In this document: one piece after another, positions 5,732 through 22,848 of the stretch
Numbering within the stretch: position 1 is the stretch's first letter
Layout: every line of letters begins with the position of its first letter
Origin: Actinomycetota bacterium
Lineage (GTDB): Bacteria; Actinomycetota; CADDZG01; WHSQ01
Direction: 5' to 3'
Length of the DNA: 33,884 nt
NCBI GenBank assembly: GCA_009377815.1
Contig: WHTI01000017.1
Span: 1 to 33,884, forward strand
Notes under the pieces: model-generated
What the model saw: only the letters and a program-made list of their open reading frames with translations
What the model was told of the DNA's origin: nothing
The model's database searches: none
Program-made: the position numbers and the translations under genes

Positions 5732-6649
5732 ATGGCGCAGACGGTAGAAGCGGTGATCGAAACGGAGGCCCCTCTCGGGAGGCGCCTCCTGGCCGAGTTC
5801 GTCGGGGCCGGACTCCTGGTGGCGATCGGTGCCGGTGCGGTGACGACCTTCCTCCTCGGTCCCCTGAAAGAGCAGGCGGCGAGGACCGCGGAGATAACCC
5901 AGGGACTAGCTCCTGAACAGATCCAGCAGCTCGAGGCCGACACCGTCATCCAATCGCTGCTTCGCGGAGGGTCGGCCGACCTCCTGCCGATCGCGCTCGC
6001 GTTCAGCCTGATTCTGGCCGTCATCGTGTACGCGTTCGGGGGGGTCTCGGGAGGGCACTTCAACCCGGCCGTCACGTTCTCGCTCGCAGCGGTCCGCAGG
6101 TTCCCGTGGACCGAGGTAGGCCCCTACATGGTGGCCCAGATCGCCGGAGGTATCGTCGGCGCCCTCCTCATCGCCGGGGTCTACGGGCAGGACGGAGCCG
6201 CCTTCGCCGATGTCGACATCCTGTTCGGTGCCACCACGATCGCCGCAGGCGTCAGCCAGTGGCAAGCATTACTCGCCGAAGCCCTAGTCACCTTCGTGTT
6301 GGTCACCGCGATCATGGCCGTGGCGATCGATCCCCGGGGGCCGAAGGCGGTCGCCGGCCTGATCATCGGTCTGTCCCTCGGCGCCGGCATCCTCGTGGTC
6401 GGACCGGTTACCGGGGCGTCGGCGAACTTCGCACGGAGTCTCGGCCCGATCGTTGCGTCCCTCTTGTACGAGACAGGTGACCCCGAGTGGGGGGATCTCT
6501 GGATCTACGCGGTGGGTCCGGTGGTGGGAGCGTGCGCGGCGGTCTTCATGTACGAGAGCGTCGCAGGACTCGAACGGATCCCTCCGGCCGCAGCACCCGA
6601 GCCCCTCGGCGAAAGCTCGGTCTCGGTCTCCGAGGAGGGTGACGGCTGA
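5732..6649 (+). CDS. MIP-family channel (aquaporin / glycerol-facilitator type)
   Basis: This 305-residue integral membrane protein has about six membrane segments and two half-helix loops. The first loop has the standard signature SGGHFNPAVTF (NPA at 111-113). The second reads TGASANFARSLGP, so its NPA is NFA (232-234); the pore Arg that follows (Arg235) is kept. A longer, charged loop between helices 1 and 2 (about residues 43-82) and a polar C-terminal tail are additions to the usual 230-280 residues. AGGAGA 5 nt before the ATG is a good ribosome-binding site. Its stop overlaps the CTG start of the next gene. Water, glycerol or another small neutral solute could be the substrate; the sequence does not decide. 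Confidence 0.85.
   Translation: MAQTVEAVIETEAPLGRRLLAEFVGAGLLVAIGAGAVTTFLLGPLKEQAARTAEITQGLAPEQIQQLEADTVIQSLLRGGSADLLPIALAFSLILAVIVYAFGGVSGGHFNPAVTFSLAAVRRFPWTEVGPYMVAQIAGGIVGALLIAGVYGQDGAAFADVDILFGATTIAAGVSQWQALLAEALVTFVLVTAIMAVAIDPRGPKAVAGLIIGLSLGAGILVVGPVTGASANFARSLGPIVASLLYETGDPEWGDLWIYAVGPVVGACAAVFMYESVAGLERIPPAAAPEPLGESSVSVSEEGDG
6632..6638 (+). promoter_or_regulatory. Shine-Dalgarno that decides a CTG start
   Basis: GAGGAGG lies 7 nt before the CTG at 6646 inside the 3' end of the channel gene. No ATG, GTG or TTG in the frame of the polymerase domain occurs between the upstream in-frame stop (6640-6642) and the GTG at 6748. That later GTG would cut off conserved N-terminal sequence. 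Confidence 0.6.
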
Positions 6650-7626
6650 CCGCGACCTTCCCGGTCGACCTGCCGGTTGAGAAGAAGGGCGGTCACTGGC
6701 ACGCACGCGCCGGCGATCGCAACCTGAGGCTGTCCAACATCGACAAGGTGTTCTGGCCGGAGCACGGCTACACGAAAGGTGATCTCCTCACCTATTACTT
6801 CAACATCTCGCCGTACATGCTCCCCCACCTCGAGGAGCGTCCCCTGACCATGAAGAGGATGCCCAACGGGATCCATGGGGACTTCTTCTACGAGAAGAAC
6901 GCTCCGGTACATACGCCCGCGTGGATGCCGAGGCTCCCGGTCAGAGCCGAGGGCGATACGAAGACGATCAACTACCTCGTTGCCAACGACGTCGCCGAGA
7001 TGCTGTGGGTGGCCAACCTCGGGTGCATCGAGTTCCACCCTCTTCACGCCAAGGGCGAGGATCAACTGCATCCCACCTACGCGTTCTTCGACCTCGACCC
7101 GTTCGAACCCGCCGGTTACGACGAGGTCCGCCACGTCGCTAAGTTGATCAAGGTCGTTCTCGATCAACTTGGTCTCGAGTCGTATCCGAAGTGGTCCGGC
7201 GCCACCGGCATGCAGATCATGCTCCCCCTCGATCGCTCGCATACCTACGACGAAGTTCGCGGCGTCATCGGAACGATCTCCGACCTCGTGCATGAAGCGG
7301 ACAAGCAGGCGACGACGCTCGAATGGGAGGTCAAGCGCCGAACCGGCAAGGTCTTCCTCGATGTCAACATGAACCGGCAGGGTGCCAACATCGCGGCCGC
7401 GTACTCGGTCCGGCCGGAGATCGGTGCGCCGGTCTCAACCCCGGTGACCTGGGACGAGATCGACGATCTCGATCCCTCCGACTACAACGTCGAAACCATC
7501 TTCGACCGCCTCGCCGAGGTCGGCGATCTCTTCCTCCCGGTCGCCGAAGGACCGGGGCAATCCTTGAACGATGCGATCGAGAGACTCGGGGCCACGCCTC
7601 GGAAGGCACGCGAGATCAAGCGGTAG
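6646..7626 (+). CDS. ligD: LigD-type polymerase/primase domain protein (stand-alone PolDom)
   Basis: This is a 326-residue stand-alone version of the LigD polymerase domain, an archaeo-eukaryotic-primase fold enzyme that adds nucleotides (often ribonucleotides) at breaks during end joining. The metal-binding Asp pair is in FFDLDPFEP (Asp149 and Asp151) and the third Asp in VFLDVNMNRQGANIAAAYSV (Asp239). At the normally conserved His of SGxxGxH the sequence is SGATGMQ, so Gln190 replaces it. The conserved N-terminus (NLRLSNIDKVFWPEHGYTKGD) lies partly upstream of the first standard start, GTG 6748. CTG 6646, with GAGGAGG 7 nt before it and a CTGA overlap with the channel stop, is therefore the best start. 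Gene partners are the DUF72 protein and the phosphoesterase-ligase. Confidence 0.87.
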   Translation: MTATFPVDLPVEKKGGHWHARAGDRNLRLSNIDKVFWPEHGYTKGDLLTYYFNISPYMLPHLEERPLTMKRMPNGIHGDFFYEKNAPVHTPAWMPRLPVRAEGDTKTINYLVANDVAEMLWVANLGCIEFHPLHAKGEDQLHPTYAFFDLDPFEPAGYDEVRHVAKLIKVVLDQLGLESYPKWSGATGMQIMLPLDRSHTYDEVRGVIGTISDLVHEADKQATTLEWEVKRRTGKVFLDVNMNRQGANIAAAYSVRPEIGAPVSTPVTWDEIDDLDPSDYNVETIFDRLAEVGDLFLPVAEGPGQSLNDAIERLGATPRKAREIKR

Positions 7627-7635
7627 CCTTTAGAG

Positions 7636-8355
7636 ATGACCCTCTTCGTCGGTACCTCGGGATGGGCGTACAAGGAATGGAAGCCGGACTTCTATCCCCA
7701 GGAGGTCCCGCAGAGAGCGTTCCTCGAGTTCTACGGCTCGAAGCTGACCGCCTGCGAGATCAACGCGACCTTCCGTCGCATGCAGTCCGACGAGACGATC
7801 GCGAAGTGGCGAGACACCGTGCCCGAGACCTTCCGGTTCTCGACCAAGGCCCACCGCGGACTGACCCACACCAAGCAACTGACGCCCTCCGAGGAGAAGA
7901 GCGAGTTCTTCAACGCGTTCGTGAAGTCGGTTGGAGGGCTCGACGGAAAACTCGGGGTGATCCTGTGGCAGTTCCCCCCCTTCCGGAAACGCGACGACGA
8001 GGACCTCGCCGGGTTGCTCGAAGCACTCAAGGGCGGTCCACGATTCGCGCTCGAGTTCCGCGACGACTCGTGGGCGGCCGACGACGTTTATCGCGCGATC
8101 GCAGACGCGGGAGGGACCGTGTGCATCTCGGAGACGAAGGGTGAGGTGCCGGTAGCTTTTCCGCCGGGGCCACTCGCCTACGTGCGGATGCGCGCCGAGC
8201 GTTACTCGGACGCCGCCCGAGGCGGATGGCTCGAACTCCTGCGCGCAACGGCCGCCGAACGCGACGTCTTCGCCTTCACGAAGCACGAGGGCATCCCGGC
8301 CGGCGATCCGTTCGGAGGCATCGGCCTCGCTCAGTGGTTGGTCGCGGAGCTCTAG
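7636..8355 (+). CDS. DUF72 family protein
   Basis: This 239-residue protein is of the DUF72 (YecE-like) family, predicted to be a TIM barrel, with no established biochemical function. Family features are the opening LFVGTSGWAYKEWKPDFYP, EINATFRRMQS near residue 50, FRFSTKAHRGLTH near 75, LGVILWQFPP near 110, FALEFRDDSW near 140 and AYVRMRAERY near 180. The start is 9 nt after the polymerase-domain stop and its own stop is 3 nt before the ligase start, so it is inside the repair operon. A TAGCCT sequence 6 nt before the ATG could also be a leaderless promoter, though it overlaps the previous stop. A nucleic-acid role is suggested only by the neighbours. Confidence 0.85.
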   Translation: MTLFVGTSGWAYKEWKPDFYPQEVPQRAFLEFYGSKLTACEINATFRRMQSDETIAKWRDTVPETFRFSTKAHRGLTHTKQLTPSEEKSEFFNAFVKSVGGLDGKLGVILWQFPPFRKRDDEDLAGLLEALKGGPRFALEFRDDSWAADDVYRAIADAGGTVCISETKGEVPVAFPPGPLAYVRMRAERYSDAARGGWLELLRATAAERDVFAFTKHEGIPAGDPFGGIGLAQWLVAEL

Positions 8356-8358
8356 GCA

Positions 8359-9888
8359 TTGCCGGCCGAGCGCTCGAAGACGTATTCGGAGAAACGCTCC
8401 TTCGATGTAACCCCTGAGCCGGGCCCTGAGGTCGAGGGCAACGTCGACCCCGGGACCGCCATTCCGGGAGAGACCTTCGTGATCCATCAGCATCACGCTC
8501 GCCGGCTTCACTTCGATCTGCGGCTCGAGATGATGAACGGTGACGTTCCCGTGCTCGTCTCGTGGGCGGTCCCCAAGAATCTCCCTCGACACCCCGGTGA
8601 CAAACACCTCGCGGTTCACGTGGAGGACCACCCGTTCGACTACGGGTCGTTCGAAGGCACGATCCCAGAGGGTGAGTACGGAGCCGGGGAGGTCCGCATC
8701 TTCGATCGCGGGGCCTACGAGGTGCTCGAGCAGGAGCCCGGCAAACTGACGATCCGCTTGCATGGCGAACGCCTCTTCGGCGAGTACCACATGTTCCGTC
8801 CGGGCTCGTCGTCGAAGTCGTCGAAGTACGGAGACAACGACTGGCTCGTGGGGCTGGGTGAGGACCACCGGCCCGAGCCCGAGCCCCTACCGGAGATGAC
8901 TCCGATGCTCGCGACGCTCGATCGCGAGCCGTTCGACGACGACCGCTACCTGTTCGAGGTGAAGTGGGACGGGGTGCGAACACTCGCGATGTGCACCGAC
9001 GAGACGATGCTGTTGTCGCGCAAGGGCAACGACATCACGGCGACATATCCGGAACTGGGGCGCACTCACCAGCGTCTGGTCGCCTACGACGCCATCCTCG
9101 ACGGCGAGATCGTCGCGTTCGAGGGCGCTCGACCCTCATTCGAGAAACTCCAGAGCAGGATCAACCTTCAGAACGCGAAGGACATCGAGCGCGTCGTGAG
9201 CAAGATCCCGGTTCAGTTCATCGCTTTCGACCTCCTCTATCTGGACGGTCGCTCGCTCGTGGGAAAGCCGGTCGAAGAACGCCGCGCCTTGCTCGAGAGC
9301 ATCGTGGTGCCGGGGGAACGGGTGGTGGTCTCCGAGGCGGTACGCGGTGACGGCGTGGCGCTGTTCGCGGCGGCCGAAGCCGCCCGACTCGAAGGCATCA
9401 TCGCTAAACGCCTGGGGTCCCCCTATCGGGCTGGGAAGCGGACCAGGGAGTGGATCAAGATCAAGGCGGTCCACGACGCCGACCTCGTCGTCGGAGGATG
9501 GTCCCGAGGCGAGGGATCCCGATCGCACTCCTTCGGGGCCCTCCTGATGGGCGCCTATGACGGTGACGAACTCCACTTCGTGGGCGCGGTTGGCACGGGG
9601 TTCTCGGACACGACGATCGCTACCATCATCGATGCTCTCAAGACGATCGAGACCGACGACTCGCCCTTCGCCGGGGGGATCGAGGCCGTCGGGGCCGGAC
9701 GATTCGGGAAACCGATCAAAGACCCGCACTGGGTCGAGCCCCTGGTCGTTGCTCGCGTCGAGTTCCGCGAACTGACGGCCGGCGACCGCTTGCGGGCTCC
9801 ATCGTTCAAGGGCCTTGCCATGGACCGCGATCCGTCCGACGCCACCCTGACGGAGCTCCGGACAGTCGCAGGTAACGATGAGTCGTGA
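8359..9888 (+). CDS. ligD: LigD-type 3'-phosphoesterase / ATP-dependent DNA ligase
   Basis: This 509-residue two-domain end-joining protein lacks only the polymerase part of LigD, which is encoded separately two genes upstream. Residues about 35-160 are the 3'-phosphoesterase domain (HHARRLHFDLRLE with His45, His51 and Asp53; EDHPFDYGSFEG with His91; PEGEYGAG), which trims 3'-phosphates and ribonucleotides. Residues about 178-500 are the ATP-dependent ligase: VKWDGVR holds the adenylated Lys202, followed by LDGEIVAF, FDLLYLDGR, EGIIAKR and the motif V WIKIKA. The C-terminal OB fold ends in EFRELT and LRAPSFKGL. The start is TTG, 3 nt after the DUF72 stop, with a modest GGAG 9 nt upstream. The methyltransferase start overlaps its stop. 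Confidence 0.93.
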   Translation: MPAERSKTYSEKRSFDVTPEPGPEVEGNVDPGTAIPGETFVIHQHHARRLHFDLRLEMMNGDVPVLVSWAVPKNLPRHPGDKHLAVHVEDHPFDYGSFEGTIPEGEYGAGEVRIFDRGAYEVLEQEPGKLTIRLHGERLFGEYHMFRPGSSSKSSKYGDNDWLVGLGEDHRPEPEPLPEMTPMLATLDREPFDDDRYLFEVKWDGVRTLAMCTDETMLLSRKGNDITATYPELGRTHQRLVAYDAILDGEIVAFEGARPSFEKLQSRINLQNAKDIERVVSKIPVQFIAFDLLYLDGRSLVGKPVEERRALLESIVVPGERVVVSEAVRGDGVALFAAAEAARLEGIIAKRLGSPYRAGKRTREWIKIKAVHDADLVVGGWSRGEGSRSHSFGALLMGAYDGDELHFVGAVGTGFSDTTIATIIDALKTIETDDSPFAGGIEAVGAGRFGKPIKDPHWVEPLVVARVEFRELTAGDRLRAPSFKGLAMDRDPSDATLTELRTVAGNDES

Positions 9889-10700: not shown

Positions 10701-12095
10701 GTGAGTTTGGCGAACGGTCCGGGAGACAGCGGGGGGCGCACGGGCTGGGATCGGTACTTCTTGAACCTTGCTGCTGAAACCGCCGCTAGGTCTAACTGCA
10801 TCCGCAGGCAACATGGGGCCGTGATCGTAAAAAATAGGCGCATCCGCTCGACGGGGTACAACGGCCCGCCAAGCGGTCATCCACATTGTGACGAGGGCGC
10901 CTGCCCTCGCGCGACGTCCACCGAGGAATCCGGCTGGGGTCATGACAACTGCTTCCATGGCGATACCGAGTTCCTCACAAGACAGGGAGTTCGCCGCCTG
11001 CGCGAAACAGCCGGCGAGGTAGTGGAAGTGTTGACATCACGTGGATGGAAGCAAGGCAAGATCGAACACTTCGGCAGGCAGCAATTGCTTTCGGTGAAGC
11101 TCAAGCGCTACGCGCAAGAACAGACCATCCTGGCAACCGCCGAGCATCGCTGGTTCATTGCTGACTCACATCGCAAACAGAGGGTCATCCTCACGCGCGA
11201 CCTAAGGGCCAGTCATTACCTTGCAAATGCCTACGTGAACCTTGGCAACGTCAAACCCAGCATCGAGGGCGTGCGAGCCGGCCTGGTTTTCGGGGACGGC
11301 TCCTGCAACTATCACCAGCCCGGGTCAGGCGCGTTCATTCATCTGTATGGAGCGAGCGCAACTGACCTGAGGTGGATCTGGGAGGGTCATCCGCATACCT
11401 CGGGTGACCGCATCCTGAATCTTCCTCGTCGCTGGAAAACGGAGCGGCCGCCGCTCGACGAAAGTCTCGGATATCTATATGGGTGGCTCCAGGGTTATTT
11501 CGCTGCCGACGGATGTCTCTCCCACTCAACCCCAGTGTTAGACAGTGCGAACCGCGAGAACCTCGAGTACGTGATCGAGCTCTGCTACATCCTCGGCATC
11601 CCAACGCTTGGAATCAGGACCACCATGCGGCAGGGATTCGGGGAAGAACCCACTTGCATCTATCGACTCACTTTCCCCCAAGGATCCCTGGAACCCGACT
11701 TCTTCCTGATTCCCCATCATCGGGAGAAAGCAGGGATCCGCAGTCGGAGACGCGATCTTCCGCGCTGGAGAGTCGTCTCGATCGAGGAAACCAAGGGCGA
11801 GCACGATGTCTATTGTGCGGTTGTTCCTGACCTACATGAGTTCACCCTCGCAGGGAACATCCGGGTCGGGAACTGCATCGCAATCCACGCTGAGGCGAAT
11901 GCGATCCTCTACTCATCACCAGAGCAACGAGAGGGAGCAACGATCTACATCACCGGAGTCCCGTGCTTTGGGTGTGCCAAGCTCATAGCTAACTCCGGTA
12001 TCCAGGAGGTCGTTACGGAAGGAGAGGTCTACCAGAACTGGAAGAATGTTCGCAGCTTTCTTCTGAACTCGAACGTTCGGGTGCGTCTCCTGTAG
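10701..12095 (+). CDS. dCMP/deoxycytidylate deaminase-family protein interrupted by an intein
   Basis: The 464-residue precursor contains a zinc-dependent deaminase split by a 308-residue intein (residues 84-391). Joined, the exteins give about 156 residues: GWDRYFLNLAAETAARSNC, RRQHGAVIVK and GYNGPPSGHPHCDEGACPR, then the catalytic HAE (His396, Glu398) and PCFGC (Cys422, Cys425). This matches the dCMP deaminase/ComEB family, which makes dUMP from dCMP for dTMP synthesis. The intein sits four residues before the HAE, so the zinc site forms only after splicing. The start is GTG with AAGGGGGA 6 nt upstream. The gene stands alone, and its sequence looks less GC-rich than its neighbours, hinting at transfer at least of the intein. 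Confidence 0.92.
   Translation: MSLANGPGDSGGRTGWDRYFLNLAAETAARSNCIRRQHGAVIVKNRRIRSTGYNGPPSGHPHCDEGACPRATSTEESGWGHDNCFHGDTEFLTRQGVRRLRETAGEVVEVLTSRGWKQGKIEHFGRQQLLSVKLKRYAQEQTILATAEHRWFIADSHRKQRVILTRDLRASHYLANAYVNLGNVKPSIEGVRAGLVFGDGSCNYHQPGSGAFIHLYGASATDLRWIWEGHPHTSGDRILNLPRRWKTERPPLDESLGYLYGWLQGYFAADGCLSHSTPVLDSANRENLEYVIELCYILGIPTLGIRTTMRQGFGEEPTCIYRLTFPQGSLEPDFFLIPHHREKAGIRSRRRDLPRWRVVSIEETKGEHDVYCAVVPDLHEFTLAGNIRVGNCIAIHAEANAILYSSPEQREGATIYITGVPCFGCAKLIANSGIQEVVTEGEVYQNWKNVRSFLLNSNVRVRLL
10950..11873 (+). mobile_element. Intein with LAGLIDADG-type homing endonuclease motifs
   Basis: This 308-residue in-frame insert begins with Cys84 (CFHGDTEFLTRQGVRRL, splicing block A), has a block-B-like ATAEHRW near residue 146, and ends in block F/G DLHEFTLAGNIRVGN directly before Cys392 of the C-extein. 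Cys at both +1 positions fits standard splicing through two cysteine nucleophiles. The usual His before the final Asn is Gly here. In the centre, AGLVFGDGS (Asp199) and GWLQGYFAADGC (Asp270) resemble the two LAGLIDADG motifs of a homing endonuclease. They stand only about 70 residues apart, so the nuclease may be compact or decaying. I could not judge whether it is active. Confidence 0.9.
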
Positions 12096-18448: not shown

Positions 18449-19879
18449 CTACAGAGCGATGTTGGACAGCACGAGGATCCGGGGCTCGGTCATCTCCTTC
18501 ATCGCGTACCTCAACCCCTCGCGGCCGGCGCCCGAGTCCTTGCTGCCCCCGTAAGGCATCTGGTCCGCCCGGAACGACGACACGTCGTTGACAACCACAC
18601 CTCCGGTAACGATGTCCCGGTGGGCGAGCATGATCCGCTCGAGATCGTTGGTGAATACTCCCGCCTGGAGGCCGTACTTCGAGTTGTTGACCTCGGCGAT
18701 GGCATCTTCGAAGTCGGAGTACTCCCCGACCGTGATCACCGGACCGAAGATCTCCTCGCAGCGAACCTTCATCCGCTCGTCGGTCTTAGTCAGAACCGTG
18801 GGTGAATACGCCGGATCCTCGCGCTTGCCTCCGATCAAGATCTCGGCCCCCGATTGCACCGCCTCATCGACCCACGCGGAGATCCGTTCGAGCGAGTCAT
18901 GATCGATCACCGGGCCGACGTCGGTGTCCGGGTCCATCGTGTCGCCGGTCTTCAGGCTTCCGACCTCGGCAACGAGCAACTCGTTGAAGGCCGCGGCGAC
19001 GTCCTTGTGGACCAGGACCCGTTGCACCGAGATGCACGACTGCCCCGCCTGGTAGTAACCCCCGAAGGCGATCCGCTTGGCCGCGTGCGCGAGATCGGCA
19101 TCGGAGTGAACGATGACGCCCGCGTTCCCCCCGAGCTCGAGGGTGACGGCCTTCGTCGGTGCGTCGCGCTTGATCCCCCACCCGACCTCCGAAGAGCCCG
19201 TGAACGAGATCTTGGCGAACCGATCGTCCTTCGCCATCTCGCCGGCCTCACTCCCGCCGATCGGGAGTACCGACAGCATCCCCGGGGGCAGATCCGTGGC
19301 CCCGAACAGCTCACCGAGGAACAGGGCTCCCAGAGGGGTCTTGGTCGCCGGCTTGATCACGATCGGCGCGCCGACCGCGAGAGCTGGTGCCATCTTGTGC
19401 GCCACGAGGTTGATCGGGAAGTTGAACGGGGTGATCGCCAGGACCGGCCCCAGCGGGAAGTACCGAACGATCCCCATGCGCGAGCCGAGAGCGGCCTCGG
19501 TGTCGAGACGCATCACCTCGTCGTGGCCGCGCCTGACCTCCTCGGCAGCCCAGCGGAACGTCGACACGGCGCGCGCCGCTTCGCCCTTCGCCCACTTGAG
19601 AGGCTTGCCGCCCTCGCGAACGATCAGTTCGGCGGCTTCATCCGACCGTTCCTCGAGAGAACGCGAGATCTTCATCAACGCCTCCGCACGAGCGTGTACC
19701 GGTAGCTTGCGAGCCTCGTCGAAGCTGTCATGCGCAGCCTGGACCGCGGCTTCGGTGTCGGCCGCGGTCGGCGTCGCCACCTCCGCCACCAGCGCGCCGT
19801 CGTAGGGGTTGCGGACCTCGAACGTCTCGTAGCCGGTGCGCCATTTTCCCGCCACCAGGTACTTCTTCGTCTCGGTCAT
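18449..19879 (-). CDS. NAD(P)-dependent aldehyde dehydrogenase
   Basis: This 476-residue member of the aldehyde dehydrogenase superfamily oxidises an aldehyde to the acid with NAD(P)+. The nucleotide site (TPFNFPINLVAHKMAPALAV, KPATKTPL), the general base Glu248 in TLELGGN and the nucleophile Cys282 in GQSCISVQR are all present, 34 residues apart as expected, with EEIFGPV and GGVVVNDVSSFR toward the C-terminus. It resembles the non-phosphorylating glyceraldehyde-3-phosphate or succinate-semialdehyde type, but the aldehyde cannot be assigned by eye. ATG 19879 is chosen over the open extension to 19987 because MTETKKYLVAGKW is the normal N-terminus. It is divergent from a polymerase-domain gene and followed by the HELVH gene. 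Confidence 0.9.
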   Translation of the reverse strand: MTETKKYLVAGKWRTGYETFEVRNPYDGALVAEVATPTAADTEAAVQAAHDSFDEARKLPVHARAEALMKISRSLEERSDEAAELIVREGGKPLKWAKGEAARAVSTFRWAAEEVRRGHDEVMRLDTEAALGSRMGIVRYFPLGPVLAITPFNFPINLVAHKMAPALAVGAPIVIKPATKTPLGALFLGELFGATDLPPGMLSVLPIGGSEAGEMAKDDRFAKISFTGSSEVGWGIKRDAPTKAVTLELGGNAGVIVHSDADLAHAAKRIAFGGYYQAGQSCISVQRVLVHKDVAAAFNELLVAEVGSLKTGDTMDPDTDVGPVIDHDSLERISAWVDEAVQSGAEILIGGKREDPAYSPTVLTKTDERMKVRCEEIFGPVITVGEYSDFEDAIAEVNNSKYGLQAGVFTNDLERIMLAHRDIVTGGVVVNDVSSFRADQMPYGGSKDSGAGREGLRYAMKEMTEPRILVLSNIAL

Positions 19880-20029
19880 CAGGGCCACCCCCAAAGGTGT
19901 AGTCGTCGTCGCTCGGCTCGATGGTAGCGCCGTGGCCGGGGCCAGGAACCGCGCCGGAGGCGGAGTCATCCCGGAACGGTTGTACAAACTGGCTGGCTAC
20001 GTCGTGACGATGTTGCCGCCCTCGCTTGG

Positions 20030-20035
20030 TAGCGT
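20030..20035 (+). promoter_or_regulatory. Candidate -10 box of the second polymerase-domain gene
   Basis: TAGCGT ends 7 nt before the GTG at 20043, fitting TANNNT of a leaderless transcript and supporting that start over the ATG at 20010. Confidence 0.35.
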
Positions 20036-20042
20036 CACTTCG

Positions 20043-21050
20043 GTGGCAACCCAAGCGGAGCTGCTCGAGGTCGACGGGCGCGAGGTGAAGGTCGGCAACC
20101 CGGACAAGATCTTCTTCCCCGCGGACACCATCATGAAGCTCGAGCTGGTCAAGTACTTCATCGCGGTAGGCTCCGGCGCGCTCAATGGCGCGCTCAACCG
20201 CCCGACGACCCTGCATCGCTTCCCGGACGGCGTCGCGGGCGAGGACTTCTATCAGAAGCGCATCCCGAAGCACCGGCCGGATTGGATCGAGAGCACGACG
20301 ATCCGGTTTCCCTCCGGTCGCTCTGCGGAGATGCTCCGGGTCGTCGACGTCGCTCACATCGCATGGGCGATCAACCTGGGGTGCCTCGAGATCAATCCGT
20401 GGCCCGTTCGGGCCGCAGATGTCGACCACCCCGATGAGCTGAGGATCGACCTCGACCCCACCCCGGAGATCCCGTTCGCCGACGTGCGGGACGTGACCCT
20501 GGTTCTCAAGGAGGTTCTCGACGAGCACGGCCTGACGGGGTGGCCGAAGACTTCGGGGAAGCGTGGCATGCACGTCCTCGTCAGGGTGGTTCCCGAATGG
20601 GAGTTCACCGAGGTCCGGCGCGCTGCCCTCGCCATCGCCCGCGAGGTGGAACGACGCGCTCCCGGGGTCGCGACGACCGCATGGTGGAAGGAAGAGCGCG
20701 TCGGGGTGTTCCTCGACTTCAATCAGAACGCGCGTGACCGAACAGTTGCGTCCGCGTACTCGGTCAGACCGATGGAGGACGCGCGGGTGTCGTTCCCGAT
20801 CACTTGGGACCTCGTGGCCGACGTTGAACCCGAGACCTTCACGGTGAGGACCGTTCCGGACCTGTTCGCCACGAACGGTGACGCTCACGCGGGGATCGAT
20901 GATTCGATGGCACCGCTAGATAGCGTCTTGGAGATGGCGCTGGAGGACGAACGCGGGGGGCTGGGAGATGCGCCGTGGCCCCCGCACTTCCCGAAGATGA
21001 AGAACGAGCCGAAGCGCGTGCAACCCTCGAAGGCGAAGAAAGAGGACTAG
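20043..21050 (+). CDS. ligD: Second LigD-type polymerase/primase domain protein
   Basis: This 335-residue stand-alone LigD polymerase domain has all standard catalytic residues: Asp136 and Asp138 in RIDLDPTPE, His177 in TSGKRGMHVLVRV and Asp225 in VFLDFNQNARDRTVASAYSV. The N-terminus (LLEVDGREVKVGNPDKIFFP) is the usual one. The frame is open up to 19836; GTG 20043 is chosen because it leaves the conserved start with a short lead and has a TANNNT box 7 nt before it, but ATG 20010 is possible. It differs strongly from the first copy (6646-7626), so they are not recent duplicates. The tail after about residue 290 is Lys/Pro-rich. It converges on a phosphotransferase gene with a 4-nt stop overlap. 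Confidence 0.9.
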   Translation: MATQAELLEVDGREVKVGNPDKIFFPADTIMKLELVKYFIAVGSGALNGALNRPTTLHRFPDGVAGEDFYQKRIPKHRPDWIESTTIRFPSGRSAEMLRVVDVAHIAWAINLGCLEINPWPVRAADVDHPDELRIDLDPTPEIPFADVRDVTLVLKEVLDEHGLTGWPKTSGKRGMHVLVRVVPEWEFTEVRRAALAIAREVERRAPGVATTAWWKEERVGVFLDFNQNARDRTVASAYSVRPMEDARVSFPITWDLVADVEPETFTVRTVPDLFATNGDAHAGIDDSMAPLDSVLEMALEDERGGLGDAPWPPHFPKMKNEPKRVQPSKAKKED

Positions 21051-21828: not shown

Positions 21829-22848
21829 CTAGAGTGCCTGGTTGTAATCGCAGTCTTCCGGGTTCTTGTCGGCGCGCCATCGCACGAAACCCACCGCATG
21901 CCGAAAGCGGCCGTCCATCATCCGGTCGTAGGCGACCTCGCAGACGAGCACCGGGATCAAGGGGAACCACGACGCGTCCTTGCCGCTGCTCCACCGGCTC
22001 TGGCCCCCGGGCGTGCGTCCCTCGCCGAAACCGCCCCCACCCTCGAACTCTCTGAGTCGCTCGAGGAGCTCGACCCTTTCATTCGCTTTGAACCCGGAGG
22101 TGTGGCCGACGTACTGGAGCACTCCGTCATCCGTGTAGAGGCCGAGTAAGAGCGAACCGACACCGCCTCCATCCTTCGAGAGCCGATAGCCGCCGACCAC
22201 GCACTCGCAGGTGCGCTTGCGCTTGACCTTCACGAGCGATCGCTTGTTCGGCTGATACGTGTCGGCGAGTTTCTTGGCGACAACCCCGTCGAGGCCCTTG
22301 TCCTCGTAGCGCGTCAGCCACGTGCGCGCCTCGGCCGCATCGGACGTCCGGGGTGTCGTCGTAAGCAACGGCGAGGACGACGCCACCCTGGCGAGCACCT
22401 CATCGATGCTCCGCGGCGCGCCGAAGTGCTCGTCGAGCAACGCGAGCCTCTCGGAGAGAGGACGATCCATGACCTCGTCATCCAGCGCCAGCACGTCGAA
22501 CAGCAACACGCTGGCTGGAACCTCCGCCGACAGCATGCGGACGCGCGACTCGGCGGGATGGATCCTCATCTGCAGCCCGCCAAACGACAGCCCGTCCTCG
22601 ATGGCGACGACGATCTCTCCGTCAAGCACGCAGTCGGTCGTGAGTTCCTCGGTTAGGAGCGCTACCAGTTCCGGGAAGTAACGATTCATCGGGCGGGCGT
22701 CCCGGCTGATGATGTCGAGTGAGTCCCCGCGGCGATGGATCAGGGTTCGGAACCCATCCCACTTCGGCTCGTAGCTCCAGCCGTCTCCTTCGGGAACGTC
22801 GTCCTGCAGCTTGGCCAGCATCGGCTTGGTCGCCAGGGTCACGGTCAT
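21829..22848 (-). CDS. ligC: ATP-dependent DNA ligase (LigC type)
   Basis: This 339-residue ligase has only the core nucleotidyltransferase and OB domains, as in LigC. The adenylated Lys29 lies in YEPKWDGFR (motif I), with LDGEIVV (motif III), LFDVLALDD (IIIa), DGVVAKK (IV) and LVKVKRKR (V). The OB end carries EVAYDRMMDGRFRHAVGFVRWR, the family's C-terminal signature. It seals nicks using ATP and often serves in repair beside LigD-type enzymes. ATG 22848 lies 3 nt after the PucR regulator stop with GAGGG upstream, so the two are probably translated together. It is a different subfamily from the phosphoesterase-ligase at 8359. Confidence 0.92.
   Translation of the reverse strand: MTVTLATKPMLAKLQDDVPEGDGWSYEPKWDGFRTLIHRRGDSLDIISRDARPMNRYFPELVALLTEELTTDCVLDGEIVVAIEDGLSFGGLQMRIHPAESRVRMLSAEVPASVLLFDVLALDDEVMDRPLSERLALLDEHFGAPRSIDEVLARVASSSPLLTTTPRTSDAAEARTWLTRYEDKGLDGVVAKKLADTYQPNKRSLVKVKRKRTCECVVGGYRLSKDGGGVGSLLLGLYTDDGVLQYVGHTSGFKANERVELLERLREFEGGGGFGEGRTPGGQSRWSSGKDASWFPLIPVLVCEVAYDRMMDGRFRHAVGFVRWRADKNPEDCDYNQAL

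Follow-up and report, generated by a model that had tools for sequence, protein, structure and literature searches.

Strong Shine-Dalgarno (SD) sequences are known to accompany the weak start codons GUG and UUG, and among about 68,900 ancestral starts in a reconstruction a change to CUG was found in only 4 (PMC5622118). A preliminary description of the locus analysed here called CTG initiation rare in bacteria. Annotated bacterial genomes contain almost no CTG starts. Conserved AUA and AUU starts combined with an extended SD have been described in Staphylococcus aureus, namely in infC (AUA), ccpN (AUA) and cvfC1 (AUU) (PMC13009471), and the combination of a rare start codon with a strong SD is already known as a kind. 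In a mycobacterial reporter selection ATT was enriched and CTG was not (0.03%; PMC4633059), and CUG may thus initiate weakly in related bacteria. Against this background we describe a well-supported new case, a CTG start in the gene of a DNA-repair polymerase, together with signs that near-cognate starts occur repeatedly in the same family, including a family-wide ATA start of ispD.

The gene is located in a stretch of 33,884 nucleotides from an Actinomycetota metagenome-assembled genome (MAG), referred to as the window. The relevant features are as follows.

5732 to 6649, forward strand: aquaporin/MIP family channel gene with the stop codon TGA at 6647-6649 (open reading frame; PF00230, E 6.2e-51)
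6632 to 6638, forward strand: Shine-Dalgarno sequence GAGGAGG (core AGGAGG at 6633-6638), 7 nt 5' of the CTG and within the last aquaporin codons (sequence and duplex energy)
6634 to 6661, forward strand: predicted mRNA hairpin whose stem joins 6634-6640, including most of the SD, to 6655-6661 (RNA fold)
6640 to 6642, forward strand: in-frame stop that bounds the polymerase reading frame on its 5' side (sequence)
6646 to 6648, forward strand: CTG, the probable start codon of the polymerase, with no plausible alternative from TGA 6640 to the conserved N-terminus
6646 to 7626, forward strand: stand-alone LigD primase-polymerase (PolDom) of 326 aa (PF21686, E 1.5e-81; TIGR02778; solved PolDoms)
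6748 to 6750, forward strand: GTG, the first canonical start codon, rejected because a start here would cut the conserved N-terminus and the LRLSNIDK segment
7636 to 8355, forward strand: DUF72 protein, the next gene (PF01904, E 9.2e-49)
8359 to 9888, forward strand: LigD phosphoesterase and ATP-dependent ligase, i.e. the rest of LigD as a separate gene (PF13298, PF01068, PF04679)

The polymerase matches PF21686 over the whole domain (positions 1-254 of 254, 274 bits), scores above the curated cut-off of TIGR02778 (217.2 against 214.7 bits) and matches the solved PolDoms 5dmu, 5op0, 6sa0, 2iru and 2fao. Its acidic motifs DLDP and FLDVN are intact, and D149, D151 and D239 are invariant among 21 sequences. 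The product of 8359-9888 exceeds the cut-offs of TIGR02777 and TIGR02779. Besides the cluster at 6646-9888, the window contains a second LigD primase-polymerase (19836-21050) and a second ATP-dependent ligase (21829-22848). It also contains a ComEB/dCMP deaminase-like gene (10701-12095) split by an intein, whose splicing and LAGLIDADG-type domains lie between the two deaminase halves.

Reading of the sequence shows that the polymerase frame is closed on its 5' side by the TGA at 6640-6642, continues with CGG 6643, CTG 6646 and ACC 6649, then GCG ACC TTC CCG, and ends at TAG 7624-7626. The first ATG, GTG or TTG past TGA 6640 is GTG 6748-6750, as had been claimed. A stretch of about 33 codons devoid of canonical starts is not unusual alone (P about 0.15 from the codon usage of this genome), and what lifts the start claim above chance is that the conserved N-terminus falls wholly 5' of GTG 6748. 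We dropped the genome-wide count of the motif AGGAGG-N4-9-CTGA as proof of CTG starts, as it is barely above its reversed control (54 vs 43).

The preliminary description had proposed that the conserved N-terminus extends upstream of GTG 6748 and had called for a comparison of homologous N-termini. Our comparison, which covered 16 genomes of the same family, bears this out: the block TxxFPVxLPVxxxGxHWxARAG..LRLSN is carried by all 11 homologues in which the region is present (64-73% identity to the window polymerase), and none begins at the position of GTG 6748. In each of these 11 homologues a candidate canonical start lies 1-6 codons 5' of the position aligned with codon 1 of the window gene. 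At the level of the phylum, the block TxxFPxxLPV...HW...LRLSNxxK is kept in many larger LigD proteins; in the alignment of 21 sequences P6 and W18 are invariant and L9 and G15 nearly so, and the LRLSNIDK segment, also 5' of GTG 6748, aligns with the solved PolDoms 5dmu, 5op0, 2iru and 2fao. Comparison of codons 2-34 with three relatives gave 15, 14 and 11 identical, 7, 10 and 8 synonymous, and 11, 9 and 14 non-synonymous codons, a pattern that fits translated sequence. An AlphaFold2 model of the polymerase calculated from 10 sequences is poor (mean pLDDT 61) and, with residues 1-12 and 17-36 below 50, uninformative on the N-terminus.

Because the conserved N-terminus lies 5' of GTG 6748 and leaves no canonical codon available, CTG 6646 is the only plausible start, and we consider it very probable that the polymerase gene initiates there; the main doubt arises because base 6646 is known from one MAG assembly. 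The gene is absent from G001, the sole genome of the same genus that was compared. We infer that initiation takes place at CUG in cells. The product predicted from CTG 6646 has 326 aa and begins (M)TATFPVDLPVEKKGGHWHA..., and the predicted N-terminal peptide is (M)TATFPVDLPVEK or TATFPVDLPVEK.

The initiation signals described earlier, GAGGAGG at 7 nt and a CTGA overlap of 4 nt with the preceding stop, are both found as claimed. AGGAGG stands at a working distance from CTG 6646, and its calculated duplex with the anti-SD (-12.9 kcal/mol, for an assumed 16S 3' end rather than that of this genome) is equalled by only 4% of the 171 genes with ATGA, GTGA or TTGA overlaps of 4 nt in the same genome; such a strong SD may offset the weak CTG codon. 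The overlap is exact, with CTGA 6646-6649 shared by the polymerase CTG and the aquaporin TGA, as in coupled gene pairs. The predicted fold of 6612-6680 (-34.6 kcal/mol, z -2.44) exceeds in stability about 99% of the folds computed for overlap genes and for random coding windows. In it most of the SD is base-paired (mean unpaired probability 0.11) and the start codon is left unpaired, an inner stem 6643-6645/6650-6652 enclosing a loop that consists of CUGA 6646-6649, the start/stop overlap itself. We read this hairpin, predicted from one sequence and without covariation, as a putative coupling device opened by the ribosome that finishes the aquaporin, and the 4-nt overlap together with the predicted hairpin over the SD makes translational coupling of the polymerase to the aquaporin gene plausible. 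The CTG start itself may lower expression of the polymerase.

Any such coupling would be specific to the lineage of the window, because relatives with the same gene order lack the overlap. Three of them (G010, G007, G008) have the order acs - aquaporin - PolDom with a spacer of about 60-320 nt between the last two genes, which holds G+C-rich inverted repeats of the terminator type; the C-terminus of the window aquaporin differs from that of the relatives. As the genes overlap by 4 nt in the window and are spaced in relatives, an ancestral arrangement acs - aquaporin - spacer - PolDom has probably lost its spacer in the window lineage, and the old PolDom start with it. The aquaporin frame now ends at a TGA whose first two bases are bases 2-3 of the CTG and whose last base opens codon 2. 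A ribosome ending the aquaporin would open the predicted hairpin and expose the strong SD, after which reinitiation, or binding of a 30S subunit, could occur at CUG with an ordinary initiator tRNA. Position 1 of the window protein usually corresponds to Thr in relatives, and recruitment of a new codon is therefore a more likely origin of the CTG than mutation of the old ATG.

In about 1.13 Mb of the genome of the window (G000), made up of 101 stretches with 840 genes whose 5' side is complete, we looked for coding signal 5' of the first ATG, GTG or TTG; the survey of the relative G004 covered 400 kb. Beyond the PolDom, clear rare starts were found in pyrE (CTG), a GH94-like gene (CTG), the glycerate kinase gene (ATT) and ispD (ATA), i.e. 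5 clear cases among 840 genes (0.6%, 95% interval 0.2-1.4%). The start of pyrE is CTG in G000, in the same-genus G001 and in G004, which belongs to another genus (L163:11750 in contig C189 of G000, L209, L216), and ATG, GTG or TTG in most other relatives; the PyrE query, in which about 15 residues at the end had not been taken from the genome, served as bait only, the start codons themselves coming from the DNA at each locus. The GH94-like gene has CTG in both genomes of the genus (L150:15454, i.e. G000:C30:35454, and L255). The glycerate kinase gene, whose family profile begins at residue 2, has ATT in G000 (L070:14143, C13) and ATC in G001 (L224), and canonical starts elsewhere in the family. 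ispD (L070:1137-1820, G000:C13; L239-L252) has no ATG, GTG or TTG start: in each of the 15 family genomes in which the carD/ispD junction was found, its ATA, with GAGG about 7 nt upstream, overlaps the stop of carD (GG-ATA-A or GG-ATA-G), and 14 of the 15 have no nearby canonical in-frame codon, while other families of the class have canonical ispD starts. The Gly codon at the carD/ispD junction is GGA in 15 of 15, against a share of 17% for GGA among Gly codons here. This suggests that the A of the ATA is under selection, the 15 genomes being related and thus not an independent count. A non-canonical start of infC is a known special case, and in this family infC starts at ATC or ATA; the gene is present in 14 of the 16 family genomes and was not found in the G000 assembly (96.6% complete), where it is probably missing due to an assembly gap. 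These conserved CTG, ATT, ATC and ATA starts in the genus and family, the homologous N-termini and the geometry of SD and overlap all support the proposed use of CTG 6646.

Overlaps of the common form are numerous in G000 (82 ATGA, 77 GTGA), and the majority of CTGA overlaps among the genes are merely CTGATG, in which the next codon is ATG. Possible further CTG starts over an upstream TGA were seen in fmt, a glycosyltransferase gene and a sufU-like gene (L163:18527, L177:15665, L187:2739). Several survey candidates with apparent upstream coding signal turned out to be antisense reading frames or frameshifted genes. A YceI-like gene (L115:12391-12603, G000:C28) appears frameshifted, its coding continuing in another frame past the stop. 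We rejected the idea that an altered initiator tRNA is generally responsible, as the anticodon arm is normal (CGGGCTCATAACCCG, with three G-C pairs) in 14 family genomes including G000.

The best surviving alternative is an error of sequencing or assembly, with ATG, GTG or TTG as the true codon 6646 of an ordinary gene with a 4-nt overlap. Each of these codons is one base from CTG, the sequence comes from a single MAG in 485 contigs, and the ATGA and GTGA overlaps counted above are the usual form; a consensus error at exactly this base has, however, a low prior, and relatives that were assembled independently have CTG or ATH starts at the homologous positions of pyrE, the GH94-like gene and ispD, which makes this explanation unlikely. 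Still less probable is a decaying or unexpressed polymerase gene that lost promoter and start codon with the spacer. The relatives do have terminator-like sequence and their own start upstream, and the second PolDom at 19836-21050 could take over, but the reading frame of 326 aa is intact, with conserved motifs and no frameshift, and the strong SD is in exact register with the 4-nt overlap. Initiation at CTG 6670 or at GTG 6748, the latter being the first canonical codon, would yield a shorter protein and is hardly credible, since residues conserved across the phylum would be lost (with GTG also the LRLSNIDK of solved PolDoms) and no homologue starts there. Finally, programmed frameshifting into an aquaporin-polymerase fusion, conceivable in that the frames overlap at CTGA, can be dismissed almost entirely: visual inspection of the stop showed no slippery heptamer, a protein joining a membrane channel to a DNA polymerase is implausible, and the SD and overlap account for the arrangement.

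With initiation at CTG 6646 as the preferred reading, a broader proposition can be put forward tentatively, as one that we regard as possible and somewhat less probable than its negation: near-cognate initiation (CUG, AUA, AUU/AUC) could be ordinary and conserved in this uncultured Actinomycetota family, often at stop/start overlaps, with standard annotation truncating or missing such genes. If this is true, the family-wide AUA of ispD, locked to the carD stop, is the clearest case. Gene callers limited to ATG, GTG and TTG would mis-start a measurable share of genes (5 of 840 as clear cases here), and a lineage with recurrent conserved CTG and ATA starts would offer natural tests of how SD strength, stop/start overlap and RNA structure rescue a poor codon.

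Compared with known systems, the locus resembles the Staphylococcus aureus cases in that a near-cognate start would be made usable by a strong SD and in that the rare codon is conserved in some genes (here ispD and pyrE); it differs in that the codon is CUG, the start overlaps the upstream stop, and CTG 6646 is found in one genome, from sequence only. With the rare start of infC it shares a start other than ATG, GTG or TTG preceded by an SD, but the feedback logic of IF3 autoregulation is inapplicable, since the PolDom is not a translation factor. The geometry is that of coupled ATGA and GTGA pairs with a 4-nt overlap and an SD inside the upstream gene, except that CTG replaces ATG, GTG or TTG and that the predicted SD hairpin is unusually stable. 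In domain family, motifs and neighbour the protein is like other stand-alone LigD PolDoms (PF21686) encoded beside a phosphoesterase-ligase LigD gene, from which only its start codon and its overlap with the aquaporin gene set it apart.
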